Assembly: GCA_027324795.1 (NCBI GenBank)
Contig: DAHVSB010000013.1
Location: 1 to 32,240, forward strand
Direction of reading: 5' to 3'
Origin: Alcanivoracaceae bacterium
Lineage (GTDB): Bacteria > Pseudomonadota > Gammaproteobacteria > Pseudomonadales > Alcanivoracaceae
Length of the DNA stretch: 32,240 nucleotides
Shown here: positions 8,175 to 32,240 of the stretch, one piece after another
How positions within the stretch are numbered: position 1 is the stretch's first letter
How the letters are laid out: each line of letters begins with the position of its first letter
The notes under the pieces: model-generated
Told to the model about the DNA's origin: nothing
The model's input: only the letters and a program-made list of their open reading frames with translations
Database searches by the model: none
Translations under genes and position numbers: made by a program

Positions 8175-8187
8175 AGCGACTCCTAAA

Positions 8188-12958: not shown

Positions 12959-13590
12959 GGATGCACCCAAGGGTTGGCCACAATTCTAAAAAACCGGTGC
13001 AACGTTTCGCCCTCTGCAAATTCTAGGGTGAGTTCTATACTGTTTGGCAAAGGCTGCTGCAGTGGTGGCACATTTTCCATACTTAAGGGTGGCCATAGCT
13101 CTTGCCATTCCCATTTATTGTTTGCTCCCCGCATTAAATAACGCCAGCGCACGCTCTCCACCCCCTCAGCCACTAGGGTGCGAACAGGCTCCATATCAAC
13201 GGTTTGGTCCAAGTACGGCCAGTGATAGCGAATCAGCTCGCCCTCTTCTAGTGCATAACTCAGGCGTTGCATTTGGCTGCGTTGGCGCAACTCTAATACA
13301 TTGCTCCAGCCTAGACGGGTAAACGTAAGATGCCTGTCATCTCCCATTAATGCCGGCTCCAGGTCGCCAAAGCCATCGCGTACGGGGCGAGCAATCAACT
13401 GCTCAATATCTTGCGATAATTGCAAGAGCAAACGCTGCCGAGACTCTTGCTGTGCAGCATGCTCCATTAATAAGGCGCGATTATCCAGCGCCTGGGTGAA
13501 GGCGTATTGCGCAAACACATACATGGCAGCAAAAATTGCGATGGCAATAATCACTTCAAGTAAGGTAAAGCCGCTATGCTTAGCCCTCAT
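12955..13590 (-). CDS. gspJ: Type II secretion minor pseudopilin GspJ
   Basis: A 211-residue minor pseudopilin. A six-residue basic leader MRAKHSG is cut before FTLLEVIIAIAIFAAMYVFA, with Glu at mature position 5. The globular part contains DIEQLIARPVRDGFG and the typical late motif LPNSIELTLEF. The ATG at 13590 lies inside the end of gspI (11-base overlap). It forms the tip complex with GspI and GspK. Confidence 0.93.
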   Translation of the reverse strand: MRAKHSGFTLLEVIIAIAIFAAMYVFAQYAFTQALDNRALLMEHAAQQESRQRLLLQLSQDIEQLIARPVRDGFGDLEPALMGDDRHLTFTRLGWSNVLELRQRSQMQRLSYALEEGELIRYHWPYLDQTVDMEPVRTLVAEGVESVRWRYLMRGANNKWEWQELWPPLSMENVPPLQQPLPNSIELTLEFAEGETLHRFFRIVANPWVHP

Positions 13591-14002
13591 GGTTCACCTG
13601 CGGGTTAGCTTGGCTGGGTACCACCTCTGGGGGCGCGCCCAACATAGTCAGTGTTTGGTACACAGGCTCCCACGCTTTGCTATTCTCACGCAATGGCCCC
13701 ACTTCAATATCTACCCGCCGGGTACCAGGGTACGGTCCCTCGGTAACCTTGGTTTGCACACGCCAGTTTCGCTGATTCACCTCCACCGTATCGGTTTGTG
13801 TGCCTGTTTTAGGCCACTCTTGATACACCTGCAATTCCACTAACTTGTTACTGGCGAGCAAATAGCCCTGGGTGTGTTCATCCAGCATTAAGGTATGTTT
13901 GCCTGCTGTGGAAATACTTTGCATAAGCGCCATCATGGAAAATACCAATATGCCTAAGGCCACTAAAACTTCGATAAGCGTAAAGCCTGACTCACGCTTC
14001 AT
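13580..14002 (-). CDS. gspI: Type II secretion minor pseudopilin GspI
   Basis: A 140-residue minor pseudopilin with leader MKRESG and mature start FTLIEVLVALGILVFSMMAL. The family pattern follows: AxNKLxELQ-like ASNKLVELQV, then a Trp-containing strand NWRVQTKV and RRVDIEV. The ATG at 14002 is chosen because GGAG lies 7 bases upstream. The in-frame GTG at 14008 leaves only one base between that GGAG and the start. It overlaps the gspH 3' end by 11 bases. Confidence 0.92.
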   Translation of the reverse strand: MKRESGFTLIEVLVALGILVFSMMALMQSISTAGKHTLMLDEHTQGYLLASNKLVELQVYQEWPKTGTQTDTVEVNQRNWRVQTKVTEGPYPGTRRVDIEVGPLRENSKAWEPVYQTLTMLGAPPEVVPSQANPQVNHEG

Positions 14003-14597
14003 TATCACGCTCCAAGCTTGGGCGGCCTAAAGGGTTCAGCGTAATCTTATGGCTAACGGAAGTGTTGACATCATCCGAATACAAAATAAGAGTGCCTGCA
14101 CTCGCTTCACCACTGGGATAAAAGAAAACCTCCGGTACCACTTCCTTACGGCCAAACTCTTTGCTGCTGGTGATGGTGTCGTCGCTTTCCTGCCAGCGAG
14201 TTAACGCATCTGGGTCTGCCTGCTGAGACGCATCAATATCTTCATCTTCCCAGCGCACGCTAAGCTGAGCGGGCAGCGCAAGTGGCTTGATGCTGCCAGT
14301 GTCAGCGCTATAAGGCTGAAAGCCATCCTCATAAGAAGCAAAGCGCAAGGGAATTAGCTGAGTATCTGTAATGCGCAGTGCCAGCAGCTCGCCTGAATAC
14401 ACACTGTATTCAGACATTTCGCCAAACAGAATTTCTACATGGGTAGCAAAGGTATCGGTTTTGCTTTGCTCTGAAACGCTTAAATTAGGCACCAAAAACG
14501 CAGCCATTAGAGCGAACAAGGTCACCACCAGCAATACCTCTACTAGGGTAAAGCCTTGGCTCTGAGTTATGCGCAATGTTTGATGCCTAGCTAGCAT
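13992..14597 (-). CDS. gspH: Type II secretion minor pseudopilin GspH
   Basis: A 201-residue pseudopilin. The leader of about 15 residues ends in QSQG, then FTLVEVLLVVTLFALMAAFLV with Glu at mature position 5. The C-terminal part shows EVFFYPSGEASAGTLILYSD, the usual GspH FxPxGxxxxxxxxL strand pair. An acidic, Asp-rich insertion (about 125-150) makes it slightly longer than most GspH proteins. The ATG is 3 bases after the gspG stop. Confidence 0.9.
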   Translation of the reverse strand: MLARHQTLRITQSQGFTLVEVLLVVTLFALMAAFLVPNLSVSEQSKTDTFATHVEILFGEMSEYSVYSGELLALRITDTQLIPLRFASYEDGFQPYSADTGSIKPLALPAQLSVRWEDEDIDASQQADPDALTRWQESDDTITSSKEFGRKEVVPEVFFYPSGEASAGTLILYSDDVNTSVSHKITLNPLGRPSLERDNEA

Positions 14598-14600
14598 AAA

Positions 14601-15044
14601 TTAGTCGTCTTGGAGCTGATGGTAATACAGGTCCTTGTTTGCGCCCTCGCCGCCCTCCAAACCATCGGCGCCTAGGCTAATCAGCTCGTATTTGCCCTGG
14701 GCTTGGTCGGGCCCAAGATAAACAAAATCGTTACCCCAAGGGTCCTTAGGAAGGCGCGACAAATAACCACCCTCAGGCCAGCTGCGTGCATTGCTGGGCT
14801 TTTCCACTAATGCTCGCAGGCCTTCATCGGTATTGGGATAGCGGCTGTTATGCAAACGAAACATATCCAGCGCACTGGCAATGCTACTCATATTGGCTTT
14901 GGCCATATCCACCTTGGCTTGCTCCCCCTGACCAATCACGTTAGGCACTATCATGGCCGCTAACAAGCCGATAATGGCCACCACTACCATAATTTCAATC
15001 AGTGTTAAGCCTCTTTGTAAGGACTTTAGCGCTTGGGACTTCAT
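14601..15044 (-). CDS. gspG: Type II secretion major pseudopilin GspG
   Basis: Major pseudopilin (147 residues) that polymerises into the pseudopilus piston. The leader MKSQALKSLQRG precedes LTLIEIMVVVAIIGLLAAMIVP. Leu rather than Phe is at mature position 1, a tolerated variant, and Glu 5 is kept. The C-terminal part has RYPNTDEGLRALVEKP, DPWGNDFVYLGP and ELISLGADGLEGGEGANKD, which includes the loop that binds calcium in this family. GGAG sits 7 bases upstream of the ATG. A gap of 18 bases from gspF and its own strong ribosome site fit the need for more GspG than other subunits. Confidence 0.96.
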   Translation of the reverse strand: MKSQALKSLQRGLTLIEIMVVVAIIGLLAAMIVPNVIGQGEQAKVDMAKANMSSIASALDMFRLHNSRYPNTDEGLRALVEKPSNARSWPEGGYLSRLPKDPWGNDFVYLGPDQAQGKYELISLGADGLEGGEGANKDLYYHQLQDD

Positions 15045-15062
15045 CTTATAACTCCGTCATAT

Positions 15063-16277
15063 TTAGATTTTAAATAAGGCATTCATTTGCAAAATGGGTT
15101 GCATCATGGCGAGCACAATTAAAAACACCAAGCCGGCCATAAAGAGCAACATCAGCGGGCCAAGCAAACTCACCACCGTATCCACTACGCCGGCGAGTTC
15201 TTTTTCTTGATACTCAGCACCGCGAGTGAGCATACGGTCTAATTCACCACTGCTCTCGCCACTGGCAATCATTTGCACCATCATGGCTGGAAAATAATCA
15301 CTTTTGCCTAACGCATGGCTGAGGCTGCCTCCTTCGCGCACACGGCGTGTGGCTTCCAGTACGGCTTCACGAATGGCTAAATTAGTAATCACTTGGCTAG
15401 AAATTGCCATGGCCTCAACCAAGGGCACACCACTGCGCGCCAAAATACCCAAGGTGCTTGCTAGGCGTGTGCTATCTGAGGTGCACACCAAGGTGCCCAT
15501 AATGGGCATTTTAGCTAAGCGCATGTGCACCCGCATACGAAATTTTGGGTTTTTGAGTGCCCGTATAAATATCACCACCGCAATGGTTATAAGTAGCGCA
15601 ACGAGCCACAGCCAATCACGAAGAAAATCGCTCACCGCAATCATTATGCGCGTCAGGATGGGTAAGGCTTGTTCATTGCGCGAAAAAACCTCCACCATGC
15701 GCGGCACCACATAGGTCATCATGAGCACAATAATGACCAAGGAAAACACCATAATAAAGGCAGGGTAAATTAAGGATTGTGTGACGGTGCGCCCAGCATC
15801 GCTGCGCGTTTCTAGGTACTCAGCCAGCTGCTCTAGTACTTGCTCCAAATGCCCGCTTTTCTCGCCCGCCGCCACGGTGGCGCAATACATTTGATTAAAA
15901 GCTTTAGGATAATCGGCGAGGCTAGCAGCGAGGCTGTAACCTTCCATCACCTTACTGCGCACACCTAAAATAATGTGCACCACGTGTTCTTTATTGTGCT
16001 GTTTGGCCACTGAGGACAGGGCCTCTTCCACGGGTAAGCCCGAACGAATTAACGTGGCCATTTGGCGGGTAATAAGGGCTTGTTGCGCGGTGTTTAATTT
16101 ACCTGAACGGGAAAATAACCGCGTGCGCTGGGCTTGTCCTTGGATTTCTTCCACGGCAACGGGAACCCAGCCCTTTTCGCGCAGCTTTTGGCGCACCCAA
16201 CGCGCACTGTCGGCCTCCATGGTGCCTTTGCGCATTTTGCCCTTGTGGTCTAAACAACGATATTCAAATGCGGCCAT
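15063..16277 (-). CDS. gspF: Type II secretion inner-membrane platform protein GspF
   Basis: A 404-residue polytopic core of the platform. It begins MAAFEYRCLDHKGKMRKG, the standard GspF N-terminus. Two repeated cytoplasmic helical domains follow, one with RQMATLIRSGLPVEEAL and one with STLGILARSGVPLVEAM. Membrane helices lie at about 170-190, 220-240 and 375-397. Length and domain order are as expected. The ATG is 3 bases after the gspE stop. Confidence 0.96.
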   Translation of the reverse strand: MAAFEYRCLDHKGKMRKGTMEADSARWVRQKLREKGWVPVAVEEIQGQAQRTRLFSRSGKLNTAQQALITRQMATLIRSGLPVEEALSSVAKQHNKEHVVHIILGVRSKVMEGYSLAASLADYPKAFNQMYCATVAAGEKSGHLEQVLEQLAEYLETRSDAGRTVTQSLIYPAFIMVFSLVIIVLMMTYVVPRMVEVFSRNEQALPILTRIMIAVSDFLRDWLWLVALLITIAVVIFIRALKNPKFRMRVHMRLAKMPIMGTLVCTSDSTRLASTLGILARSGVPLVEAMAISSQVITNLAIREAVLEATRRVREGGSLSHALGKSDYFPAMMVQMIASGESSGELDRMLTRGAEYQEKELAGVVDTVVSLLGPLMLLFMAGLVFLIVLAMMQPILQMNALFKI

Positions 16278-16280
16278 GGG

Positions 16281-17831
16281 TTAATGCTCTCGTGTAACGC
16301 GTAACACTTCTTCGATGCTCGTTTCGCCGGCAAGCACTTTGCGCCAGCCGTCATCGCGAATGCTTGGGGTGCGCTCGCGAGCTAGCCGCTCTAACTGGTG
16401 CTCCCCCGCCCCGCTATGAATCAGCTCCGCCATGGCATTATCCACCACCACTAATTCATAAATACCGGTGCGCCCACGGTAGCCCTGGTCATGGCAATGC
16501 TCACACCCCATGGGCTTATAAATCACACTGCTATCGGTATCCGCCAAGCCCAATAACGCTTTTTCTGAGGCGGTGGCTACCTCGCCCTTTTTGCAATGAG
16601 GACATAGCACCCGCACTAAACGTTGCGCCATCACTGCGAGCAAGCTCGACGACAATAAGAAAGGCTCAATGCCCATATCTTGCAAACGCGTCACCGCACC
16701 CACGGCGGTGTTAGTGTGCAAGGTGGAAAGCACCAAGTGCCCGGTTAAACTGGCTTGCACCGCGATTTCAGCGGTTTCTAAGTCACGAATTTCACCAATC
16801 ATCACCACGTCTGGGTCTTGGCGCAAAATGGCGCGTAAGCCGCGGGCGAAGGTCATGTCCACTCGGGTATTGACTTGGGTTTGACCGATGCCCTCAAGCT
16901 GATATTCGATAGGATCCTCCACAGTCAAAATGTTGCGGGTGGAGTCGTTAAGCTCGGTGAGGCTCGCATATAATGTAGTGGTTTTACCCGAGCCCGTGGG
17001 CCCAGTAACCAAAATAATACCGTGGGGTTTTTTGATTTGCTCCATCATTTCTTGATAGCACACATCGCCCATACCCAGATGCCCGAGCTGCAAACGCCCA
17101 GCTTGTTTATCCAGTAAACGCAATACCACGCGCTCGCCATTGCTCGAAGGCATGGTGGAAACCCGCACGTCCACATCGCGCCCACCGAGGCGTAAAGAAA
17201 TGCGGCCATCTTGAGGAATACGTTTTTCCGCAATATCTAAGCGCGCCATTACCTTAATGCGCGACACCAACAAAGGTGCCAATTCACGGCGCGGTGCCAA
17301 AATTTCTCGTAGTACACCATCTACCCGCATGCGTACCAATAAACGGCGCTCGAAAGTTTCAATATGAATATCTGAGGCATCTTCACGAATCGCCTCTTGG
17401 AGCAAGGCGTTAATCAAACGGATGATGGGAGCATCATCTTCTTGTTCGAGCAAATCCGAGGTTTCAGGCAAGGCTTCCGCAAGGCTGGCTAAATCCATCC
17501 CCTCAAGGCTGTCAGCAGCCTCTGCCGCCACGCCGCGCTGCTGCTCATAGGCAATGGCCAAAGCGCTATCAAACTCGCTGTCATCCATGGTGATAATGGT
17601 GGGCATTGCACCTAGGGAACGCTGCACTTCAGCGAGTACGGCAAAATTAACAGGCGGCACACAGCATAATTCTCGCTGGCCATTGTCACCGCGCAGTAAC
17701 ACTTTGTGCCGGCGCGAAAAGCCGTAGCTGAACAATTCAGTAGCGGGGTTTTCTACTTGGTCGAGAGCCTCGCTGGGCATGTCATTTTGCGCAAGCGGGT
17801 TTTGTTCTAGTTCTAAGGATGCATTAGGCAT
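16281..17831 (-). CDS. gspE: Type II secretion ATPase GspE
   Basis: Hexameric cytoplasmic ATPase (516 residues) that powers pseudopilus assembly. Motifs in order: N-terminal domain binding GspL, Walker A GPTGSGKTT (277-285), Asp box TVEDPIEY (303-310), Walker B DVVMIGEIRD (341-350), His box GHLVLSTLHTN (364-374), and a zinc-binding tetracysteine C410, C413, C443, C446. All catalytic residues are present. The start is the ATG at 17831 with GAGG 5 bases upstream; the in-frame TTG at 17849 is rejected. It is the first gene of the gspE-M operon. gspC and gspD do not precede it; instead there is the end of the prp operon. Confidence 0.95.
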   Translation of the reverse strand: MPNASLELEQNPLAQNDMPSEALDQVENPATELFSYGFSRRHKVLLRGDNGQRELCCVPPVNFAVLAEVQRSLGAMPTIITMDDSEFDSALAIAYEQQRGVAAEAADSLEGMDLASLAEALPETSDLLEQEDDAPIIRLINALLQEAIREDASDIHIETFERRLLVRMRVDGVLREILAPRRELAPLLVSRIKVMARLDIAEKRIPQDGRISLRLGGRDVDVRVSTMPSSNGERVVLRLLDKQAGRLQLGHLGMGDVCYQEMMEQIKKPHGIILVTGPTGSGKTTTLYASLTELNDSTRNILTVEDPIEYQLEGIGQTQVNTRVDMTFARGLRAILRQDPDVVMIGEIRDLETAEIAVQASLTGHLVLSTLHTNTAVGAVTRLQDMGIEPFLLSSSLLAVMAQRLVRVLCPHCKKGEVATASEKALLGLADTDSSVIYKPMGCEHCHDQGYRGRTGIYELVVVDNAMAELIHSGAGEHQLERLARERTPSIRDDGWRKVLAGETSIEEVLRVTREH

Positions 17832-17877
17832 CGATACCTCATTGGGCAAACAATTTATTAGCGTTTATTGTTGTCTG

Positions 17878-19282: not shown

Positions 19283-21889
19283 TTAAGCAGAGGCTTCTTC
19301 GGCTAAAAACTCCTGGGCAAAGCGCTGCAATACGCCGCCTGCGTTGTAGGTTACCACTTCGTCTTGGGTATCAAGACGGCAAATCACAGGCACTTCCTGC
19401 TCTTCGCCATTGCGGCGCTTAATCACCAAAGTAAGGGTGGCACCAGGCGCAGGCGTACCTTTCACCGAATAGGTTTCAGTGCCATCTAAGCCCAAGGTAA
19501 GACGTGTGGTGCCTTCCTCAAACTGTAGCGGCAAGATACCCATGCCCACCAGGTTAGTGCGGTGAATCCGCTCGAAGCCTTCGGCGACAATGGTTTCCAC
19601 ACCCGCAAGGCGCGGCCCTTTGGCTGCCCAGTCGCGGGAAGAACCCTGTCCATAAGCAGCACCCGCAATAATAATCAGGCGGTTTTTGCGCTCCATGTGG
19701 GTTTCAATGGCTTCCCACATGCGCATCACCTCGCCGTCTGGTTCTACACGTGCCAAGGAACCTTGGATCACATTGCCCTCTTCGTCGCGCACCATCTCGT
19801 TAAAGAGCTTGGGGTTCGCGAAGGTAGCACGCTGTGCGGTGAGGTGATCCCCTCGGTGGGTGGCGTAGGAGTTGTAGTCTTCCTCGGGCAAACCCATGGT
19901 GGCCAAATATTCACCCGCGGCGCTATCCGGCATGATGGCGTTAGAGGGTGAAATATGGTCGGTGGTGATGTTGTCGCCAAAAATCGCCAGCGGGATTAAA
20001 TCCGTGAGCGTATTTTCAGCGGCTAAGGCACCTTCCCAGTAGGGCGGGCAGCGAATATAGGTACTCATCTCGCGCCACTCGTACAGTGGGCTTTCGGAGC
20101 GCTTCACATCGTCCAGGTTAAACATGGGGATGTAAATCTGGTTAAACTGCTCTGGCTTCACATGCTCGCCCACAATGGCATCGATTTCTTCGTCGGAAGG
20201 CCAAATGTCTTTCAGCGTGATGGGGTTGCCGTCTTGGTCGTAGCCGAGGGCATCCTGCTCGATATCAAACAAGGTGGTGCCCGCAATAGCGTAAGCCACC
20301 ACTAAGGGGGGCGACGCTAAAAAGGCTTCCTTCACGTGGGGGTGAATACGGCCATCAAAGTTACGGTTACCGGAAAGCACCGCTGTGGTGTGAATACCAC
20401 GCTCAAGCACTTCTTTTTCAAGCTCAGGATCGAGCGCACCGCTCATACCGTTACAGGTGGTACAGGCAAAGCCCACAATACCGAAGCCGAGCTTTTCGAG
20501 CTCTGGCAGCAAGCCAGAATCGTTCATGTAAAGCTCAATCACACGAGAGCCGGGGGCAAAAGAGGTTTTCACCCAAGGCTTGCGGGTAAGGCCCAGCTCG
20601 TTAGCTTTTTTGGCAATTAAACCAGCCGCCACTACGTTACGTGGGTTACTGGTGTTGGTGCAGCTGGTGATGGCCGCCAAAATCATGGCGTGATCTGGCA
20701 TTCTGCCGTCTTCGCTAGGTGTCCAATCGCCAGCGATGCCTTTCTTGCGTAAATCTTCCGTGGCCACACGGGCGTGAGGACGCGAAGGGCCCGCCACGTT
20801 GCGCACTACTTTGGATAAATCAAAGCGCAACACACGCTCATATTCAGCGGTTTTCAGATCAGAGGACCACAAGCCAGTGTGCTTGGCGTACTGCTCCACT
20901 AGCTTCACCTGCTCATCTTCACGGCCGGTGAGCTTCAGGTAATCGATGGTTTGCTCATCGATGTAGAACATGGCTGCGGTGGCGCCATATTCTGGCGTCA
21001 TGTTAGAAATGGTGGCACGGTCGCCGATGGTGAGGCTGTCGGCACCTTCACCGAAGAACTCGATATAAGCAGACACCACGCCCTCTTCACGCAAGAACTC
21101 AGTGAGCGCAAGCACGATATCGGTGGCGGTAATGCCAGGTTGGCGCTTGCCCGTGAGCTCAACCCCTACAATATCGGGGTGGCGCATCATGGTGGGATGG
21201 CCCAGCATCACCACTTCCGCTTCGAGGCCACCTACTCCAATGGCGATAACGCCGAGGGCGTCCACGTGGGGGGTGTGAGAGTCGGTACCCACACAGGTAT
21301 CGGGGAAAGCAATGCCGTTACGGTTGTGCACCACAGGCGACATTTTTTCGAGGTTAATTTGGTGCATGATACCGTTACCCGCACGGATCACGTCGATGTT
21401 TTCAAAGGCGGTGCGCGTCCAATCAATAAAGTGGAAGCGGTCTTCGTTACGGCGCAACTCCACTTCTTTGTTTTTTTCGATGGCGTCTTTGTCGTAGCCG
21501 CCGTATTCCACAGCTAAAGAGTGGTCAACAATCAGCTGTGTGGGCACCACGGGGTTTACTTTCCATGCGTCACCACCCTGCTTGGCAATGGCTTCACGCA
21601 AGCCAGCAAGGTCGACTAAGGCGGTACCACCCAAAATATCATGGGTTACCACACGGGCAGGGTACCAAGGAAAATCCGATTCGCTTTTACGGTAAATCAG
21701 TTGCTCTAACGCTTCGGTGAGCTTTTCTGGATCACAGCGACGCACTAAATTTTCGGCAAACACACGAGAAACATAAGACAACTTCTCGTAAGCACCGGGT
21801 TTAATATCGTTCACCGCCTCGCGGGCATCGAAGTAATCGATGTTCGTGCCTGGCAGTGTTTTGCGGTATTTGGTGTTAACTTTTTCCAC
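19283..21889 (-). CDS. acnD: Fe/S-dependent 2-methylcitrate dehydratase AcnD
   Basis: Aconitase-superfamily enzyme (868 residues) that dehydrates 2-methylcitrate. It replaces PrpD in organisms that also carry PrpF. The N-terminus TKYRKTLPGTNIDYFDAREAV is typical of AcnD rather than AcnA. The 4Fe-4S ligands are Cys 410 in TSCTNTSNP and Cys 476/479 in ACTTCNG. Aconitase motifs DSHTPHVDALGVIAIGVGG and the swivel-domain GQGSSRDWAAKGP are intact. The GTG at 21889 is chosen because AGGGTG lies 6 bases upstream. The in-frame GTG at 21898 is part of that same purine run and has no ribosome site of its own. Third catabolic gene of the operon. Confidence 0.95.
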   Translation of the reverse strand: MEKVNTKYRKTLPGTNIDYFDAREAVNDIKPGAYEKLSYVSRVFAENLVRRCDPEKLTEALEQLIYRKSESDFPWYPARVVTHDILGGTALVDLAGLREAIAKQGGDAWKVNPVVPTQLIVDHSLAVEYGGYDKDAIEKNKEVELRRNEDRFHFIDWTRTAFENIDVIRAGNGIMHQINLEKMSPVVHNRNGIAFPDTCVGTDSHTPHVDALGVIAIGVGGLEAEVVMLGHPTMMRHPDIVGVELTGKRQPGITATDIVLALTEFLREEGVVSAYIEFFGEGADSLTIGDRATISNMTPEYGATAAMFYIDEQTIDYLKLTGREDEQVKLVEQYAKHTGLWSSDLKTAEYERVLRFDLSKVVRNVAGPSRPHARVATEDLRKKGIAGDWTPSEDGRMPDHAMILAAITSCTNTSNPRNVVAAGLIAKKANELGLTRKPWVKTSFAPGSRVIELYMNDSGLLPELEKLGFGIVGFACTTCNGMSGALDPELEKEVLERGIHTTAVLSGNRNFDGRIHPHVKEAFLASPPLVVAYAIAGTTLFDIEQDALGYDQDGNPITLKDIWPSDEEIDAIVGEHVKPEQFNQIYIPMFNLDDVKRSESPLYEWREMSTYIRCPPYWEGALAAENTLTDLIPLAIFGDNITTDHISPSNAIMPDSAAGEYLATMGLPEEDYNSYATHRGDHLTAQRATFANPKLFNEMVRDEEGNVIQGSLARVEPDGEVMRMWEAIETHMERKNRLIIIAGAAYGQGSSRDWAAKGPRLAGVETIVAEGFERIHRTNLVGMGILPLQFEEGTTRLTLGLDGTETYSVKGTPAPGATLTLVIKRRNGEEQEVPVICRLDTQDEVVTYNAGGVLQRFAQEFLAEEASA

Positions 21890-21953
21890 AAATATCACCC
21901 TAAGGTTATGTGAATGAATGGGTTAGGCGGCATTTCTACCGCCCAACTTTAAC

Positions 21954-23081
21954 TTATGCACGCTCTGCAATGGGTGTTACGGTACGTGGTTCTTCACCCA
22001 CATATTCGGCGCTTGGGCGAATAATGCGGTTATCCGCACGCTGCTCGAACACGTGAGCTGCCCAACCGGTTAAGCGGCTCATTACAAAAATAGGCGTGAA
22101 CAGCTTAGTGGGAATGCCCATGAAGTGGTACGCAGAGGCATGGAAGAAATCGGCGTTACAGAACAACTTCTTCTCGCGCCACATCACTTCTTCAACACGC
22201 ACAGATACAGGGTAAAGGGTAGTATCGCCCACATCGGCGGCGAGTTTTTCCGACCACTGTTTAATAATTTCGTTACGTGGATCAGATTCACGGTAAATGG
22301 CGTGGCCAAAGCCCATGATCAAATCTTTGCGCTCTAGCATTGCCAAAATTTCTTTTTCCGCTTCCTCGGGGCTCTGCCAGTTTTCAATCATGTCCATGGC
22401 CGCTTCGTTCGCACCACCGTGCAACGGGCCACGTAGAGAACCAATGGCACCGGTAATGCAGCTGTGTAGGTCGGACAAGGTGGAGGCACACACACGGGCA
22501 GTAAAGGTAGAGGCGTTGAACTCGTGCTCAGCGTACAAAATAAGCGACACGTTCATTACCTGCTCGTGTAAGGCATTGGGCTTTTCGCCGCGCAACAAGT
22601 GCAAGAAGTGCCCACCAATGGAATCGTCATCGGTTTCGGTATCAATGCGTACGCCATCGTGGCTGTAGCGGTACCAGTAAGTGATGATGGAAGGAAACGC
22701 CGCCAACAGGCGATCGGTGGCATCTTCCTGCTCATCGAAGCTGTTTTCAGTTTCGAGGTTGCCGAGCATGGAACAACCGGTGCGCATCACATCCATGGGG
22801 TGGGCGTCCGCTGGAATGCGCTCAAGCACATCTTTTAATGCTTGAGGTAAGCCACGTAACCCTTTGAGTTTCTTCTTATAAGCATCTAATTCTGCTTGAT
22901 TGGGTAGCTTGCCTTTTAAGATCAGGTGAGCCACTTCTTCAAACTGGCAATTTTCCGCTAGATCTTTTACATCATAGCCGCGGTAGGTTAAACCAGAGCC
23001 ACTTACGCCCACGGTGGACAGTGCTGTTTTTCCTGCTACTTGGCCACGTAAGCCAGCGCCGCCTAATTCTTTCTTCGCCAT
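21954..23081 (-). CDS. prpC: 2-methylcitrate synthase PrpC
   Basis: Condenses propionyl-CoA with oxaloacetate to 2-methylcitrate. The 375-residue length and the start motif GLRGQVAGKTALSTVG fit PrpC rather than the longer hexameric citrate synthase GltA. Citrate-synthase-fold catalytic residues are visible: H221 in GPLHGGANEAAMDM, H260 in GFGHAIYRESDPRN and D311 in NADFFHASAYHFMGIP. H186 (AEHEFNA) is also conserved. The ATG at 23081 has AGAGAG about 7 bases upstream. It is separated from prpB by 78 bases containing short GC-rich hairpins and no T run. Confidence 0.95.
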   Translation of the reverse strand: MAKKELGGAGLRGQVAGKTALSTVGVSGSGLTYRGYDVKDLAENCQFEEVAHLILKGKLPNQAELDAYKKKLKGLRGLPQALKDVLERIPADAHPMDVMRTGCSMLGNLETENSFDEQEDATDRLLAAFPSIITYWYRYSHDGVRIDTETDDDSIGGHFLHLLRGEKPNALHEQVMNVSLILYAEHEFNASTFTARVCASTLSDLHSCITGAIGSLRGPLHGGANEAAMDMIENWQSPEEAEKEILAMLERKDLIMGFGHAIYRESDPRNEIIKQWSEKLAADVGDTTLYPVSVRVEEVMWREKKLFCNADFFHASAYHFMGIPTKLFTPIFVMSRLTGWAAHVFEQRADNRIIRPSAEYVGEEPRTVTPIAERA

Positions 23082-23159
23082 AATAAAACTCTCTATGTGC
23101 TAGTCAGTTTAAGGGTTTTACCCTAGTGGTTAACACGCCGACATTTGCCGGCGCTGGTA

Positions 23160-24050
23160 TTAATTTTTGCCTTGCTTGAACAACTCATCGAGCTTTTGCT
23201 CGTAATCGTGGTAGCCCAAGAAATCATATAGTTCCATACGAGTTTGCATGGTATCCACCACGTTTTGCTGGTGGCCATCTTCACGAATGGCTTTATACAC
23301 ATTCAACGCCGCCTTGTTCATGGCACGGAAGGCAGACAACGGATACAAAATCATATTTGCGCCCGCTTCGGCTAGCTCTTCACGGGTGAACAAAGGCGTG
23401 GCACCAAATTCGGTAATGTTTGCCAATAAAGGGGCACCATTAATGCCCTTAGAAAAGGCACGGTAATCGTCTAAAGTGTGCACTGCTTCAGCAAAGATGC
23501 CATCCGCACCCGCTTCTAAACAGGCATTAGCGCGATCGATGGCCGCTTCTAGGCCTTCTTTTTGGAAAGAATCCGTGCGTGCAATGATGAAGAAATCCTC
23601 ATCGAAGCGTGCATCGGCTGCCGCTTTAATACGGTCTACCATTTCTTCTTTCGATACGATTTCTTTGTTGGGGCGGTGGCCGCAACGTTTTTGTGCCACT
23701 TGGTCTTCCATGTGCACGGCACCCGCGCCCGCACGAATCATTTCTTTCACGGTGCGAGCAATGTTAAACGCCCCACCCCAGCCGGTATCGATATCTACGA
23801 GCAAAGGCACATCGGTGGCACCACTGATGCGGCGCACATCTTCGAGCACGTCATTCAAGCTCGTCATGCCTAAATCGGGCAAACCGTAGGACGCATTAGC
23901 CACGCCACCGCCCGATAAATAAATGGCTTTATAGCCCACCTGCTCGGCCATCATGGCGGCATAAGCGTTGATAGTACCCATGATTTGTAAGGGCTGTTCT
24001 TCGGCTAGTGCCTTGCGGAAACGGCCTCCAGCAGTCAATTTATTGCTCAT
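23160..24050 (-). CDS. prpB: 2-methylisocitrate lyase PrpB
   Basis: Splits 2-methylisocitrate into pyruvate and succinate. The 296-residue TIM-barrel protein of the ICL/PEP mutase superfamily has [14 protein letters not shown], the metal-binding region DIDTGWGG (87-94), and the catalytic-loop motif KRCGH at 121-125 with Cys 123. AAGGAG is 6 bases before the ATG and is embedded in the last codons of the regulator gene (3-base gap), so the two are translationally coupled. Confidence 0.97.
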
Positions 24051-24053
24051 AGT

Positions 24054-24755
24054 TTACTCCTTAACGTGGCCCACTTTGGGCTCGATGCCGGCTTTATGCT
24101 GGCGCTCAATGTTTTCACGAGCACGACGAATATGGCGGCGCATTAGCCACTCTGCCATTTCACCATCTCGTGCTTCTATAGCCTCCACAATCTGGCGATG
24201 CTCGCGCAGCGCTAATTGTGGACGATTAGTTACGGTGGAAAACTGATAGCGATACATGCGCACCATGTGGTAAATATCGCCAATAAGCATTTGAATCAGT
24301 GATTTGTTGTGGCTACCGTGAATCACTTGATAGTGGAAATCTAAATCCCCTTCACGCTGAAAATAAGCCACATCTTCTTTGATGTCTTGTTGTTGCTCAT
24401 GCTGCGCCAAAACTTCATATAAAGCCTTAACGGCCTCATCGGTCATATTTTGTGCTGCTAATTTAGCAGCCATACCTTCTAAGGCTTCGCGCACATGATA
24501 AATTTCAATGAGGTCTTGTAACGACAGCTGTGCCACTCGCGCTCCCACATGCGGTGCGCGCTCCACCAGCTTTCTTGCCTCAAGGCGACGAATGGCCTCA
24601 CGCAAAGGGCCGCGGCTAACACCGTAGCGCGTGGCTAGCTCCGTTTCCCCAAGCTTGCTACCAGGGGGCAATACGCCCAGGACAATATCGTCCTGCAGCT
24701 TCTTAAACACCTGGTCCGCTAAGGTACCTTGGATTGAAGTCGATGGAATAGCCAC
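24054..24755 (-). CDS. GntR-family (FadR subfamily, FCD domain) regulator of the prp operon
   Basis: Transcription factor of about 233 residues. The winged helix-turn-helix spans about 11-75 (LADQVFKKLQDDIVLGVLPP, ELATRYGVSRGPLREAIRRLE). The all-helical FCD effector domain (about 80-215) shows the Asp/His pattern that binds a metal in this family (DLDFHYQ, REHRQIV, RRHIRRARENI). The GTG at 24755 is preferred over the GTG at 24782. It has AGAG about 7 bases upstream, and the longer form would place the operator at 24767-24778 inside the coding sequence and add a non-family FCRQRAVK tail. It is the first gene of gntR-prpB-prpC-acnD-prpF, and probably senses a methylcitrate-cycle intermediate and represses its own promoter. 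It is not the sigma-54-type PrpR of enterics. Confidence 0.9.
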   Translation of the reverse strand: MAIPSTSIQGTLADQVFKKLQDDIVLGVLPPGSKLGETELATRYGVSRGPLREAIRRLEARKLVERAPHVGARVAQLSLQDLIEIYHVREALEGMAAKLAAQNMTDEAVKALYEVLAQHEQQQDIKEDVAYFQREGDLDFHYQVIHGSHNKSLIQMLIGDIYHMVRMYRYQFSTVTNRPQLALREHRQIVEAIEARDGEMAEWLMRRHIRRARENIERQHKAGIEPKVGHVKE

Positions 24756-24766
24756 TTTTACTGCTC

Positions 24767-24778
24767 TTTGTCTACAAA
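24767..24778. promoter_or_regulatory. Operator 1: palindrome TTTGTCTACAAA
   Basis: Arms TTTGT/ACAAA around a 2-bp centre, with extended identity to operator 2 (CTTTGTAGACAAAA on opposite strands). It lies 12 bases before the preferred GTG of the GntR gene. The TTGTnnACAA form is the kind of site bound by FCD-type GntR regulators, so autorepression of the prp operon is the likely role. Confidence 0.65.
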
Positions 24779-24829
24779 ACACATAGGTGCAGCCACTCTA
24801 ATTGCTGAAACCACGGAATGCAAGAGCAC

Positions 24830-26020: not shown

Positions 26021-26998
26021 ATGAAAGCACCCGTACGTGTAGCGGTCACCGGTGCCGCCGGTCAAATCAGCTATTCTTTATTATTTCGTATTGCCGCAGG
26101 CGATATGTTAGGTAAAGATCAACCTGTTATCTTACAGTTGCTGGAAATTACCCCCGCATTAGAAGCCTTAAAAGGCGTTACCATGGAACTGGAAGACTGT
26201 GCCTTCCCTCTTTTGGCTGGCATTGTACAAACCGATGATCCTAAAGTTGCCTTCAAAGATGCTGATTACGCCTTGCTTGTTGGTGCACGTCCACGTGGTC
26301 CCGGCATGGAGCGCAAAGACTTATTAGAAGCTAACGCTGCGATTTTCTCAGTGCAAGGCAAAGCTATTAACGAAGTAGCTAGCCGTGATATTAAAGTACT
26401 CGTGGTGGGCAACCCTGCAAACACCAACGCACTCATTACCCAGCGCAACGCACCCGATATCGACCCACGTCAGTTTACTGCCATGACTCGCTTAGACCAC
26501 AACCGTGGCAAAGCACAGCTAGCCAATAAGCTAGGTGTTACTGTAAATGACATCAAAAACATGACCATTTGGGGCAACCACTCCGCCACTCAGTATCCCG
26601 ATCTTCACCACACGGAAGTCAACGGTAAAGTGGCTATAGATCAAGTGGAGCAAGACTGGTACGAAAACACCTACATCCCTGAAGTTCAGCAACGCGGTGC
26701 GGCCATTATTAAAGCACGTGGCGCTTCTTCTGCAGCTTCTGCTGCTAGCTCTGCCATCGATCACATCCGCTCTTGGGCACTTGGCAGCGAAGAAGGCGAC
26801 TGGGTTTCCATGGGTGTATACAGCGATGGCTCCTATGGTATCGAGAAAGGCCTTATTTACTCCTTCCCATGCGTTTGCAAAAACGGCGACTGGGAAATCG
26901 TACAAGGCTTGGAAATCAATGAATTCTCGCAAGCACGTATGGATGCCACTGAGCAAGAGCTTATTGAAGAGCGTGATGCAGTAGCGCACTTGCTCTAG
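26021..26998 (+). CDS. mdh: Malate dehydrogenase (cytosolic-type, NAD-dependent)
   Basis: Interconverts malate and oxaloacetate in the TCA cycle. The 325-residue protein belongs to the cytosolic/chloroplast-like MDH group rather than the E. coli type. The N-terminus [21 protein letters not shown] is the Rossmann loop, and the catalytic loop is [13 protein letters not shown] with R92 and R98. The catalytic pair is D159 in TRLDHNR and H187 in [12 protein letters not shown], with a C-terminal [18 protein letters not shown]. All key residues are intact. AAGGAG is about 8 bases before the ATG. It is a monocistronic unit between terminators. The upstream region carries GCTTGTGTTA, a decamer also found upstream of ompW. 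Confidence 0.97.
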
Positions 26999-27061: not shown

Positions 27062-27104
27062 ACGATGCTGCATAGTGGGAAACCCTATGCAGCATCGTTT
27101 TTTT
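27062..27104. terminator. Bidirectional terminator between mdh and rraA
   Basis: Perfect 14-bp stem (27062-27075 with 27085-27098) and a 9-base loop. Seven T follow on the plus strand, and six T follow two bases after the stem on the minus strand. It serves mdh from the left and the kinase-epimerase-rraA operon from the right, and its T run runs into the rraA stop codon. Confidence 0.95.
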
Positions 27105-27588
27105 AAGCTAATAAGTTGTCTTGCGACACCACGACGCCATTATTATCCACGTAAACATGATGGCCGGGCTCAAAGGTGACACCGCCAAAAGTAACAGGGA
27201 TATTGAGCTGCCCTTCTCCACGGCGAACGCTTTTGATTGGCACGCAGCCTAAAGTTACAACGCCAAAATCAATTTGCGCTAGCTCATCCACATCGCGACA
27301 AACACCATAAATAAGGATACCTTCCCACTGGTTTTCTGCCGCGTTGGCAGCAATCATATCGCCAATGAGCGCATTGCGAAGCGATCCGCCGCCATCCACA
27401 ACAAGCACTTTGCCTTTGCCGGGTGTGGCCAACTGCTCTTTCACCCGAGAGTTATCTTCAAAGCACTTCACTGTCACAATTTCGCCACTGAAGGCCTTGC
27501 GCCCTCCATAACTTTGCCAGTGCAACCCCGTGACCACTTGAACTAGGTCGGCATTGTCATCACTGATATCGCAGGTTACAAAACTCAC
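27103..27588 (-). CDS. rraA: RraA family protein (regulator of RNase E activity A)
   Basis: A 161-residue trimeric RraA fold. In E. coli RraA binds the C-terminal scaffold of RNase E and inhibits mRNA decay. Other family members are class II 4-hydroxy-4-methyl-2-oxoglutarate/oxaloacetate aldolases. Signatures are [18 protein letters not shown] (63-80) and GVCRDVDEL (95-103), which include the Arg and Asp residues that bind metal and substrate in aldolase members. Sequence and length are nearer to true RraA. The start is GTG (27588-27586) with AAGGAG 6 bases upstream. It lies 11 bases after the epimerase-like gene and is the last gene of the three-gene operon. Confidence 0.92.
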
Positions 27589-27599
27589 TGAATTCTCCT

Positions 27600-28256
27600 T
27601 TATTTATTTGCTGCCATGATATGGGCATATTGCCAGCGCATCACACGCTCTTCCTGCGGTAGCAGAGCCGCAATAGCCATGGCCTTGGCCACTGCTTTGG
27701 CATCCACTGGCCACCAGGGGGCACGAAGATTACGCCACAAAGGTTTTATGTAATTGGCTATGCTACCAAAAGATTGCTCCACTAAGCGAAACTCATCACG
27801 TTCGCCAAGCAACAGCGAGGGTTGCATTAAGGTGATTTTGCCGAAGGGTAACTCTGAGATAGCTTCCTCTAACTGCCCTTTAACCTGTGAATAAAAGAAA
27901 GCTGAATTAACATCAGCGCCATAGGCAGAGACGAGCAAGTAACGGCGCACGTTAGCTTGTGCCGCGAGCGTTGCTATTTGGTAGTTATAAGTAAAATCCA
28001 CTTGCCTAAAAGCATCCTTAGAGCCGGCCTTGGCTTTGGTGGTGCCCAAGCAAGAAAATACCGCATCCACAGCAAACAAATCGCCGTGTGCACCTAAATT
28101 GGAAAAATCCACTTCCACCTGCTCAAGTTTCTTATGCTTAATAGGCAATTCACTGCGCCCTGCCACAATCACTTTTTCCCATGCTGATGAACTGAGCAGT
28201 TCATTTACCAAGTGGCTCCCAATTAAGCCCGAGGCACCAAAGACCAATGCTTTCAT
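27600..28256 (-). CDS. NAD(P)-binding epimerase-like protein (atypical short-chain dehydrogenase, YbjT/HIM1-type)
   Basis: A 218-residue single Rossmann domain. The nucleotide-binding motif [15 protein letters not shown] begins at residue 7. [20 protein letters not shown] and [25 protein letters not shown] follow, a pattern of small NAD(P)H-binding proteins related to HTATIP2/Him1 and YbjT. The YxxxK pair is present as YSQVK. Substrate unknown. The ATG at 28256 begins the Rossmann strand ([10 protein letters not shown]) and has GGAG about 10 bases upstream. A longer in-frame form starting at 28301 would overlap the kinase gene. It lies 5 bases after the kinase stop and 11 bases before rraA. 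Confidence 0.85.
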
Positions 28257-28261
28257 ACTGT

Positions 28262-30553
28262 TTATTTCTCCCGTTGTTGTTCTGTTATGGTTGGTAGCCA
28301 ATAACGCAAGGCACCATCAAGCTCATCTAAGGTGATAGGTTTCGATAAATAATCATCAAGCCCCGCAGCAAGGCACTTCGGCTGAATGCCTTCGGTGGTG
28401 TCTGCTGTTAGCGCCACAATAGGCAAACGATTGGCCTGGGATTCTTCTTCTGCCAAACGCAGCTCCCTGACCCACTCCAACACCGAACGGCTTTGTATAA
28501 ACAGCTCTGTGAGCACCAAGTGCATAGGCTCTTTTGTCAATACTTCTTGGGCTTTATTTAAATCGGCCACCGTTTTTATTTGGTAGCCCAAACGGTTAAG
28601 CATGCTTTTGGTGACAGCTTGGTCTGCTTCGTTGTCCTCGATTAGCAATAGCCGATAATGCTTACGCGCCCGTTTACGCTCACTTGATTCATCAAAATCA
28701 TCGTCTTCAGCTAGCAAGGATTGCAAACCATAACTCGTCGCCAATACCCGCCGTATGCCGGAACGGTGCACGGGCTTGGCTAGCACCTGCACGGCGTCGT
28801 ATTCGGCCCGTTGCAATACAGTTTCTAGGCCCACCTGTTCCGTGCTACCGAGCAAAAGAACTTTACATCCTTGCAGGCTTGGGTCGTCGAGAATGCTGTC
28901 ACATAATCGCAATGCATGCTGTTTATGTGCCCATAAATCAATCACCACCATATCGCGGTGATTGTCCTCCCGCGCCGCATCGCGTAGCTGCTGCAAGGCG
29001 TCATCGTATTGAACTGCCACCTGGGTATCAATATCCAGACTATGCAATTCCATCGCCAATGAATCTTTGGTGCCCTCAGCCATGCCCACTAATATAAAAT
29101 GCTTGCCGCGCAGAAACCGCCGCCATTCTGAGCGCTCCGTCATATCCGGCCGTGCCGGCAGAGGTAAACGAAACCCAATCTGGTTGTTGTATTCCTGCTT
29201 CACCACCTCTTCTTGGTGCTCAAAACTTATCGTGGGCGCCAGGCTTCCCGCGAAAATACTGCCGCCCATGGCATCTATTAAGCCTCTGCATACAAGCAAG
29301 TTAAAGCTCGTACGTATACTGGTGCCATCGAGCAAATCACTACCCCCGTCTTGGCCAAACAGCTTATCAATTTGCTTATCGCCGATGCCTTCGCCCTGGG
29401 TGCTCACAGTGAATTGCAATATGCCATCTTGGTAACTGTCTTCATCAAAGCTCACATCCACGCGCACCTCGCCCTCATCTGCGTACTTGATGGCATGGGA
29501 TAGCAACCCATTGATGACTTGCACAATACGCTGCTGGTCGCCGCGCACACGGCGTGGCAACCGGCTATCGAGCACACCACTCAACTCCAACCCTTGTCGT
29601 TGAGCGATGGAGCCATAGGCATCTAGGGACTGTTCTAACTGGGCCCTAAGCACAAAGTCATCAGGCGCGAAAACAATATGGCCGAGCATGATTTGGCTAT
29701 AGTCGAGCACATTATTCAGTTGCATCAACATCAAGCGCCCAGATTGAGCTGCCACAAGATGATATTCCTTTTGCTCATTATCGAGCTCCGTATCATGGAG
29801 CAGCTCAAGCATGCCCAAAATACTATTAAGAGGGCTACGTAAATCTTGGCTAACCCGTGAGAGAATCTGTAGCTGAGTTGATTTATCAAGCGAGTCGTGC
29901 TGGTGAGTACTTTGTAATTCATGACGTTTTTGGCGAGCCACTGCATGCCAAAAAGTTAAATAAAAATTCTTATATAAACGCCCCAAATATAATCCGTAAA
30001 AAACAAGAACCAGGCCCAGCACCTGTAGTTGCCACTCACCACTCAATAACAGCACGCACGCCATGGGCGTTAGCATAATAAACAAGTACAGCTGGCGATA
30101 AGCCAGGCCCCACATCCATGCCCCTGCCAAGGCTGTGGCAACACCTAAAATATACAAAACAACCAGCACAAACCCATAGCCCATTCCATTGAGCACAACA
30201 ACTAGCGCTGAAAAGCTTCCCCACAACACAGCATGACAAAGCAGCCCTGCGGCAAACCATTGCCGCCAGCGCTGTGGCCCCGCACTGTAAATGGCGCGAA
30301 AACGCAAACTCACAAAAAGCCGTAACGCAGCCACAAATAACATGGCAACGCCGTAGGACATCACCAAACTTTCCATCGCTTGATATAAGCCACTACTAAA
30401 AGCCACCACTGCAAAAACAATTAATGAGGCAAGGCTTGCCGCCACTGTGTTGCGCGCTGCCGCCGCATCCACCCGGCGCAACACCTTAGGGTCCACTGCT
30501 TTTAAAGAGGGTTTAAACGACGTGTTTTTCATCGAACTGTATAAATTATGCAT
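28262..30553 (-). CDS. Hybrid histidine kinase homologue with substituted phosphotransfer residues (pseudokinase)
   Basis: A 763-residue inner-membrane protein. Five or six hydrophobic helices lie between about 36 and 205, then a dimerisation/HisKA-like domain (225-290), a HATPase_c-like domain (335-470), a first receiver-like domain (485-600) and a second receiver (632-750). The H box reads SQDLRSPLNSILGM, with Gln 236 (CAA, 29846-29848) where the phosphorylated His belongs. The N box has His 353 (29495-29497) in place of Asn. The G1 motif lacks its Asp (VSTQGEGIG). The second receiver keeps LIEDNE, LTADT and LSKP but has Glu 683 (GAG, 28505-28507) in place of the phosphoacceptor Asp. The first receiver lacks the acidic pair. 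No frame disruption. It is therefore probably a non-phosphorylating scaffold or sensor. It heads an operon with the epimerase-like gene and rraA. Confidence 0.85.
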   Translation of the reverse strand: MHNLYSSMKNTSFKPSLKAVDPKVLRRVDAAAARNTVAASLASLIVFAVVAFSSGLYQAMESLVMSYGVAMLFVAALRLFVSLRFRAIYSAGPQRWRQWFAAGLLCHAVLWGSFSALVVVLNGMGYGFVLVVLYILGVATALAGAWMWGLAYRQLYLFIMLTPMACVLLLSGEWQLQVLGLVLVFYGLYLGRLYKNFYLTFWHAVARQKRHELQSTHQHDSLDKSTQLQILSRVSQDLRSPLNSILGMLELLHDTELDNEQKEYHLVAAQSGRLMLMQLNNVLDYSQIMLGHIVFAPDDFVLRAQLEQSLDAYGSIAQRQGLELSGVLDSRLPRRVRGDQQRIVQVINGLLSHAIKYADEGEVRVDVSFDEDSYQDGILQFTVSTQGEGIGDKQIDKLFGQDGGSDLLDGTSIRTSFNLLVCRGLIDAMGGSIFAGSLAPTISFEHQEEVVKQEYNNQIGFRLPLPARPDMTERSEWRRFLRGKHFILVGMAEGTKDSLAMELHSLDIDTQVAVQYDDALQQLRDAAREDNHRDMVVIDLWAHKQHALRLCDSILDDPSLQGCKVLLLGSTEQVGLETVLQRAEYDAVQVLAKPVHRSGIRRVLATSYGLQSLLAEDDDFDESSERKRARKHYRLLLIEDNEADQAVTKSMLNRLGYQIKTVADLNKAQEVLTKEPMHLVLTELFIQSRSVLEWVRELRLAEEESQANRLPIVALTADTTEGIQPKCLAAGLDDYLSKPITLDELDGALRYWLPTITEQQREK

Positions 30554-30682
30554 AAATGTTCTTCAAGCAGTTAGGTTAATGGGCAACAACACCTATCAAG
30601 CCATTTTTGCCGCTTTACCTCAGGGTAGAGGTCGGCTAGTGTGTGGCGTTTACCAATAATGAACAATAAAAGGTAGCCACCC

Positions 30683-32240
30683 ATGAAGACAGAGGCGCTT
30701 TGGAGCCCCGCCGAACATACCAAGCAACACAGCCAGCTAGCAGCGTACTGGCAACGTATAGAAACAAGCACACAGATGCAGTTCCAAAACTATCGCGAAC
30801 TGCACCAATGGTCCATCCGCCACAAGGAAGCATTTTGGCGTTCTATCATTGAGCAAACAAGCATTATTTATGAGGGTGAACTTTCCCCTGCTTTTATTGA
30901 GAAACCCCATTTTAAAGATTGTCTTTGGTTTCCTAATCTCAAACTGAATTATGCTGAAAACTTGTTGCATCGCCGCGACGAGCATATCGCTTTACGTTGC
31001 TATACCGAAGCGGGACAAACGCGCAGCTACACCTATAACGACTTGTTTAAACAAGCAGCGGCGGCGGCGAACGCACTGCGCAAGGCCGGAGTTAAGCCAG
31101 GTGATAGAGTTGCTGCTTGGCTTCCTAACGGTGCCGAAGCCATTATTGCCATGTTAGGCGCTACCTGGATTGGTGCCATTTGGTCCTCTTGTTCGCCAGA
31201 TTTTGGTGTAACAGGCGTGCTAGACCGCTTTGGGCAAATCGAACCAAAAGTTTTGTTTGTCACGGATGGCTACCAATACAATGGCCGCTGGCAAGATATC
31301 ACCCAACGCGTATCAGAAGTGGTTACCGCTTTAGCGCCACAGCAAGTGGTGCAGATTCCTAGCGCAGAAAACCAACCCATTAATGGAGCCTTGCTCTGGC
31401 CACAATGGCTGGAAACCGAGCTCCCTGCCCCGGCTTTTGTGCGCCAAGCATTTAATGCCCCTTCGTTCGTCCTTTATTCCTCAGGCACCACGGGCAAGCC
31501 CAAGTGTATTGTTCATGGCACTGGCGGGCCTTTATTGCAACACGCCAAAGAGCACCGCTTGCACGGTGATTTAAGTGAAAATGACGTGCTGTTTTATTTC
31601 ACCACCTGCGGCTGGATGATGTGGAATTGGCTAGTGGCTGGGCTGCAATCTGGCGCCACCTTGGTGCTGTATGATGGCAACCCCGCCTACCCGCACGTTG
31701 GCCACTTGTTTGATGTGGTGGAAGAAACTGGCATTACCCACTTTGGCACCAGCGCGCGCTTTATTCAGGCGTTAGAACAAGCTGATTTTACCCCCACCAG
31801 TGCAGCGCAATTGGCCACCCTTAAAGTGCTGTATTCCACCGGCTCGCCCCTGCTTGATAGCAGTTACGACTATATTTACCAACAGTTAAAAGCTGATTTG
31901 CAGGTGAGCTCTATTTCGGGGGGCACAGATATTATTTCGTGCTTTGCCCTCGGCAACCCTCTTTTGCCCGTACACAAAGGCAGCTTGCAGTGCGTCGGGC
32001 TCGGCATGGATGTGGCCATATTTGATAACGACGGTGAAGCACTGCCAAAGGGCCAAGGCGAACTGGTGTGCCGCACCCCCTTCCCCTCTATGCCCGTGGC
32101 GTTTTGGAATGACCCAAGCGGCGAGCTTTATCACAGCGCCTATTTTGAACGGTTCGATAACGTGTGGGCTCACGGTGACTTTGCCGAGTTTATTCCCTAT
32201 GAAGCTCACGATGCTTTGGTGATTCATGGCCGTTCCGACA
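30683..32240 (+). CDS. aacS: Acetoacetyl-CoA synthetase, 3'-truncated by window edge
   Basis: Adenylate-forming ligase that activates acetoacetate to acetoacetyl-CoA with ATP. 519 complete codons are visible of about 650 expected; the frame is still open at the window end. The N-terminus LWSPAEHTKQHSQLAAYWQ and the ACS_N-like YRELHQWSIRHKEAFW are typical. The ATP/AMP loop YSSGTTGKPK is at 265-274, followed by CGWMMWNWLVAGL, LYDGNPAYP and the adenine-binding region SISGGTDIISCF, characteristic of AacS rather than acetyl-CoA synthetase. The ATG at 30683 is preceded by AAAAGG. It is divergent from the pseudokinase operon with 129 bases between them, in which I see no clear operator or promoter. 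Likely role is ketone-body or polyhydroxybutyrate carbon use. Confidence 0.94.
   Translation, partial: MKTEALWSPAEHTKQHSQLAAYWQRIETSTQMQFQNYRELHQWSIRHKEAFWRSIIEQTSIIYEGELSPAFIEKPHFKDCLWFPNLKLNYAENLLHRRDEHIALRCYTEAGQTRSYTYNDLFKQAAAAANALRKAGVKPGDRVAAWLPNGAEAIIAMLGATWIGAIWSSCSPDFGVTGVLDRFGQIEPKVLFVTDGYQYNGRWQDITQRVSEVVTALAPQQVVQIPSAENQPINGALLWPQWLETELPAPAFVRQAFNAPSFVLYSSGTTGKPKCIVHGTGGPLLQHAKEHRLHGDLSENDVLFYFTTCGWMMWNWLVAGLQSGATLVLYDGNPAYPHVGHLFDVVEETGITHFGTSARFIQALEQADFTPTSAAQLATLKVLYSTGSPLLDSSYDYIYQQLKADLQVSSISGGTDIISCFALGNPLLPVHKGSLQCVGLGMDVAIFDNDGEALPKGQGELVCRTPFPSMPVAFWNDPSGELYHSAYFERFDNVWAHGDFAEFIPYEAHDALVIHGRSD

Follow-up and report, generated by a model that had tools for sequence, protein, structure and literature searches.

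A hybrid histidine kinase with eroded catalytic sites and an open frame in an Alcanivoracaceae genome

Introduction

What holds a histidine kinase gene in frame once residues that carry out its phosphotransfer have been replaced? The question is raised by a degenerate hybrid histidine kinase gene of an Alcanivoracaceae bacterium (GenBank assembly GCA_027324795.1), located at 28262..30553 on the minus strand of contig DAHVSB010000013.1. Positions refer to the window, the whole stretch of 32,240 nucleotides that was analysed. Pseudo-histidine kinases are rare, and those already described, DivL among them, are old and fixed, which makes their origin hard to see. In a large survey, the His was missing from 0.9% of HisKA domains and the Asp from 2.0% of receivers (PMC12632262). 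A preliminary description of the gene had proposed that every phosphotransfer site was replaced, that the gene was maintained rather than decaying, and that its product gave a constitutively "on" output or served as a scaffold or sensor.

Results and discussion

Domain organization and modeled fold

The kinase ORF is open over all 763 codons, with no stop or frameshift, and it does not show the disrupted frame by which a pseudogene is recognized. Codon-position GC is normal, with a typical GC3. The family domains of a hybrid kinase (HisKA, PF00512; HATPase_c, PF02518; and PF00072, with two Response_reg stretches) are all present above cut-off, and the domain order is a six-helix membrane part, DHp, CA, REC1, and REC2. 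Six transmembrane helices are predicted within aa 22-213 (29915..30490), at aa 22-53, 61-83, 93-122, 126-145, 150-170, and 174-213 of an AlphaFold model. They are followed by the DHp domain (aa 222-290; 29684..29890; PF00512), the CA, or ATP-binding, domain (aa 298-465; 29159..29662; PF02518), REC1 (aa 485-608; 28730..29101), and REC2 (aa 634-753; 28295..28654; PF00072 at aa 636-749), all on the minus strand. The model (mean pLDDT, 77.8) shows the six membrane helices, DHp, CA, and two receiver folds, and is to be read as compatibility with the fold and not as proof, since its alignment included canonical relatives. The intact frame and remaining fold of the preliminary description are thus borne out, with all four cytoplasmic domains folding in the model.

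Replacement of phosphotransfer and ATP-site residues

Translation and alignment to 29 orthologues confirm the four substitutions that had been named at the outset. On the minus strand, Gln stands for the phospho-acceptor His at codon 236 (29846..29848; His in 29/29 orthologues), His for the N-box Asn at codon 353 (29495..29497), Thr for the G1-box Asp at codon 385 (29399..29401), and Glu for the REC2 phospho-acceptor Asp at codon 683 (28505..28507), with the latter three residues invariant in the orthologues. The same alignment reveals further losses in the N box (Asn349Gly) and in the G2 box, where GFG has become SFN (Gly416Ser and Gly418Asn; codons 416-418, 29300..29308, minus strand), and the H box is also altered by Glu237Asp and Thr240Ser.

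The proposal that every phosphotransfer site had been replaced holds for the H box and REC2 but fails for REC1, whose Asp539 (28937..28939, minus strand) is kept here and in 29/29 orthologues. REC1 has a receiver fold in the model and is without the acidic pair in every orthologue; because the pair is absent in the whole family, we regard REC1 as an ancestral pseudo-receiver that was never a normal receiver. REC2, in turn, qualifies as a pseudo-receiver through the missing acceptor Asp (D683E). Its pocket residues E639/D640, T716, and K738 are retained, in line with the earlier view that the rest of this receiver was well kept, but the loop following residue 683, which reads CMMPxMDGF in relatives, has been destroyed (C684L, P687Q, D690S, G691V, and F692L). 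The H-box His, the N, G1, and G2 boxes, and the output-receiver Asp, by which a functional hybrid kinase is defined, have all been lost. By sequence definition the protein is a pseudo-histidine kinase, with a histidine kinase fold and missing catalytic functions, and judging from these residues it is very probably catalytically dead.

Orthology and polarity of the losses

Of the 46 family genomes, its own included, 45 contain one kinase match each at E <= 1e-50, and the genome without a match is 64% complete. The orthologues of relatives show 40-45% identity to the kinase over its whole length, a divergence at which synonymous sites would be expected to have reached saturation. Gene order from the kinase through an epimerase gene to rraA is kept in the nine family genomes compared and in one genome of another family (L066), with mdh matched within the retrieved stretch in six of those ten genomes. 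The kinase is therefore a single-copy, syntenic orthologue across Alcanivoracaceae. The canonical family member is a single-copy hybrid kinase at the same locus, upstream of the epimerase gene and rraA and usually with mdh nearby, and shares the length, the six-helix membrane domain, and the order DHp-CA-pseudoREC-REC. However, it keeps the His, Asn, G1 Asp, G2 Gly, and REC2 Asp, all of which are lost in the protein studied here.

The protein from an outgroup family also carries the His, Asn, G1 Asp, and REC2 Asp. Canonical residues in 29/29 aligned orthologues as well as in the outgroup mark the losses as derived in the source lineage, which forms the first branch of the family (concatenated tree; support, 82). 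No same-genus relative was found among the 46 family genomes, and one contig scan gave remote kinases only; the comparison covers orthologues of other genera, which are canonical. A literature search found nothing specific on the Alcanivorax orthologue. Eleven other histidine kinases read in the source genome keep both the His and the Asn, and the residue loss is accordingly not general to this genome.

The preliminary description had reasoned that canonical orthologues would point to recent decay or a sequencing error. The orthologues are indeed canonical, but neither explanation fits, because dozens of derived changes are concentrated in DHp and REC2, rraA and mdh are normal, and the frame is open.

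Neighboring genes and other features of the window

Immediately downstream of the kinase lies a gene for an NAD(P)-binding epimerase-like protein (27600..28256, minus strand; PF13460/PF01370), which occupies the same position in relatives. Its listed TTG start at 28301 overlaps the kinase end, and the ATG at 28256, a few nucleotides past the kinase stop codon, is the more likely start, to which we have reassigned it. The genes rraA (27103..27588, minus strand; NF006875) and mdh (26021..26998, plus strand; NF003916) served as rate controls. On the upstream side, a pseudogene was considered for 30553-31886, where no ORF is listed, and rejected, as the region is instead the first part of a gene for an AMP-binding ligase that runs off the contig end; its homologues in relatives stand at 55-58%, and from its sequence we take it to be acetoacetyl-CoA synthetase-like.

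There are no RNA genes within the window, and a promoter scan returned sites no more frequently than in shuffles. Elsewhere in the window, type II secretion genes GspM, L, K, J, I, and E are recognized by Pfam at 10226-17849, with ORFs lacking an assignment at the positions of GspG, H, and F. At 6327-8922, a gene that matches Lit (lipoprotein intramolecular transacylase) is overlapped at its start by a 634-aa ORF without a Pfam family, and at 19283-24782 we observe a 2-methylcitrate-cycle-like cluster comprising the Fe/S-dependent 2-methylisocitrate dehydratase AcnD, a GntR-FCD regulator, and two genes between them.

Rate and pattern of erosion

The kinase has a mean identity to the family of 41%, versus 55% among the other genomes, while the same comparison gives 75 versus 75.5% for rraA and 86 versus 86% for mdh. 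It has lost 59 of 208 lineage-invariant sites (28%), compared with 1-10% in eight other genomes; in its own neighbors the loss amounts to 6% (rraA) and 3% (mdh). On a fixed tree, the source branch takes up 6% of tree length for rraA and 14% for both mdh and the epimerase gene, versus 15% for REC1, 20% for the membrane region, 27% for DHp-CA, and 31% for REC2. Among the four genes compared, the acceleration is clearly specific to the kinase, and by share of tree length it is greatest in the phosphotransfer domains.

Erosion is also uneven within the protein. Invariant-site loss is 18% in the membrane part, 38% in DHp (15 of 40 lineage-invariant sites; aa 205-295), 29% in CA (14 of 48 invariant sites; aa 300-460), 30% in REC1, and 29% in REC2. 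The membrane region (aa 20-204), where 36 of 44 lineage-invariant sites are kept, is the least eroded, with its difference from DHp reaching borderline significance only (p=0.055). Catalytic sites were lost more often than other invariant sites (11/20 versus 41/165; Fisher p=0.008), also when only the cytoplasmic part is considered (p=0.022), and the enrichment vanishes in REC2 alone (p=0.69); it is modest and depends on the list of catalytic sites, which was chosen from general knowledge. Of 185 invariant sites, 133 are kept.

Retention of the reading frame

When mutation was simulated under neutrality, the frame stayed intact in 5 of 300 runs at 10% amino acid change and in 0 of 300 runs at >=15%. 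The excess divergence of DHp and REC2 exceeds this simulated limit, which means that the frame was protected during divergence. Neutral drift by itself cannot account for the open frame, and to that extent the earlier view of a maintained gene is supported. The best reading of this result is that selection on the fold or the membrane domain, or else operon coupling, holds the kinase in frame.

Loss of relay partners from the source genome

Hybrid kinases that lack an Hpt of their own usually depend on a separate one for output. The source genome (2.05 Mb in 154 contigs; 86.7% complete) has one significant Hpt match, on a ChpA-like fragment, versus 7-12 in 45 relatives. In five relatives, mutS-fdxA is adjoined by a standalone Hpt roughly 115 aa long. 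The source genome has no Hpt beside fdxA, although mutS-fdxA is intact there and lies mid-contig, on 57.5 kb; it is followed by other genes, presumably AzlC/AzlD-like and condensin-like (Muk/Smc-type) from their sequences; gene order in relatives places the missing Hpt after position 6664 of L086 (G000:C132:20000-36000).

The BarA/GacS model at E <= 1e-60 has 0 matches in the source genome, versus 5-15 hybrids in each of the 45 relatives, one of which is only 64% complete. Relatives carry barA between pdxJ/acpS and cysM, whereas in the source genome pdxJ, acpS, and cysM are consecutive and only some 76 bases separate acpS from cysM, marking a clean GacS/BarA loss at about 4743-4820 of L126 (G000:C73:12000-21484). 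The chance of missing five such genes at 86.7% completeness is about 4e-5, if they are independent. The Hpt and GacS/BarA losses are real deletions, not assembly gaps. In relative G028, however, roughly a dozen long, hybrid-sized kinases could share one Hpt, and the lost Hpt may have served kinases other than the one studied here.

As a separate observation, the two-component repertoire of the source genome is much smaller, with 17 HATPase_c matches versus 35 in G028, and its 2.05 Mb (86.7% complete) compare with mostly 3-5 Mb in relatives.

Explanations for the eroded kinase

We lean, with slightly better than even confidence, toward a lineage-specific pseudo-histidine kinase that was left after collapse of the phosphorelay and kept for a phosphate-free role. 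Loss of the downstream Hpt relay would have removed selection for His-to-Asp transfer, the lost Hpt having presumably once served this kinase; released from that selection, the catalytic residues may have drifted or been replaced. The remnant would be a non-phosphorylating membrane protein whose membrane domain and dimeric fold may still act without phosphate, for instance by binding a signal or a regulator in the manner of DivL. A role at the protein level without phosphate is favored because erosion is uneven and the fold is kept, and a scaffold or sensor role, as suggested early on, is possible. The stronger form of this idea, in which the orphaned kinase was repurposed and shed its His-Asp chemistry and ATP residues while the membrane sensor and dimeric fold were selected for phosphate-free signaling, is one that we put forward tentatively, at somewhat less than even confidence.

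Ranking close behind the best explanation is the alternative of operon coupling, in which the kinase is a relict in slow decay with no function of its own. Its frame would be kept since nonsense and frameshift mutations are polar on the epimerase gene and rraA, whereas missense changes would be free. The few nucleotides that separate the kinase stop from the next ATG, the overlapping or abutting genes of relatives, the strong acceleration of the cytoplasmic domains, and the loss of the wider Hpt relay network all agree with such a relict. Free missense drift, however, should be even, and we observe less erosion in the membrane part than in DHp and an enrichment of losses at catalytic sites; the invariant sites still kept and the fold still modeled also speak against it. 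We consider this relict possible but doubtful.

The remaining explanations are much less probable. That Glu683 mimics phospho-Asp, so that REC2 permanently drives its output, was suggested in the preliminary description but is not supported, and we regard it as improbable. The retained pocket would suit it, and in many response regulators a Glu at this position can serve as a partial phosphomimetic. Yet the loop beside Glu683 is eroded, and a hybrid receiver usually hands its signal to an Hpt, of which both the standalone form and that of GacS are gone from the genome. Glu is a common replacement in pseudo-receivers and hence weak evidence, and the idea of a phosphomimetic at the D position has been disproved for some of them (PMC12632262). 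An inhibitor that forms a heterodimer with another histidine kinase such as GacS, in the manner of RetS, is similarly unlikely. RetS cannot autophosphorylate and acts on GacS, but two of its three mechanisms depend on the REC2 Asp or on HExxT (PMC5992135), and the present kinase has changes at both. The kinase cores of RetS and GacS are among the nearest solved structures, but with GacS/BarA deleted, only the kinases that the genome still has could act as partner. Finally, an error of sequencing, assembly, or binning could be suspected in a draft genome of 154 contigs, but dozens of independent in-frame changes, the typical GC3, the open frame, the conserved local synteny, and the normal neighbors make it very improbable.

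Comparison with known systems

The nearest solved structures are those of ShkA, GacS, and RetS. The best match is ShkA of Caulobacter (PDB 6qrj), which has the same DHp-CA-pseudoREC1-REC2 order but is active, in contrast to the replaced catalytic residues seen here. Control of REC1 by c-di-GMP as in ShkA was considered and rejected, since the c-di-GMP-binding Tyr338 of ShkA (K-3 of REC1) corresponds to Val590 here and to Val, Thr, or Ile in all orthologues. Across the orthologues, REC1 has an invariant Asp along with Tyr516, Arg524, Arg528, and Arg597. REC1 may bind a ligand by another route than the ShkA site.

The Caulobacter pseudo-histidine kinase DivL (4q20 among the structural matches) resembles our protein in that the phospho-acceptor His is replaced and the histidine kinase fold kept. 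DivL retains the N, G1, F, and G2 boxes, however, and its His replacement is conserved across DivL homologues (PMC4211667), whereas our protein has lost its ATP site as well and the change is known from a single lineage. RetS of Pseudomonas aeruginosa shares the layout of a membrane hybrid kinase with two receivers, and its ATP-binding domain is degenerate and unable to autophosphorylate, but it keeps HExxT and a functional REC2 Asp858 and works on GacS (PMC5992135). With an H box of QDxxS, Glu683, and no GacS, the source kinase differs from RetS in each of these respects. An Asp-to-Glu change at the receiver acceptor is also found in plant pseudo-response regulators and other atypical receivers (PMC12632262); these form conserved families, whereas here the Glu occurs in a single sequence and the neighboring loop is lost.

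In this family, the canonical single-copy orthologue, the polarizing outgroup, and the GacS/Hpt deletion together place the loss of catalysis and the loss of partners on one branch. If the remnant is under selection, orphaning of a pathway would be a route to phosphorylation-independent sensors; if it is not, the locus would offer a clean example of a relay decaying from its catalytic residues outwards.
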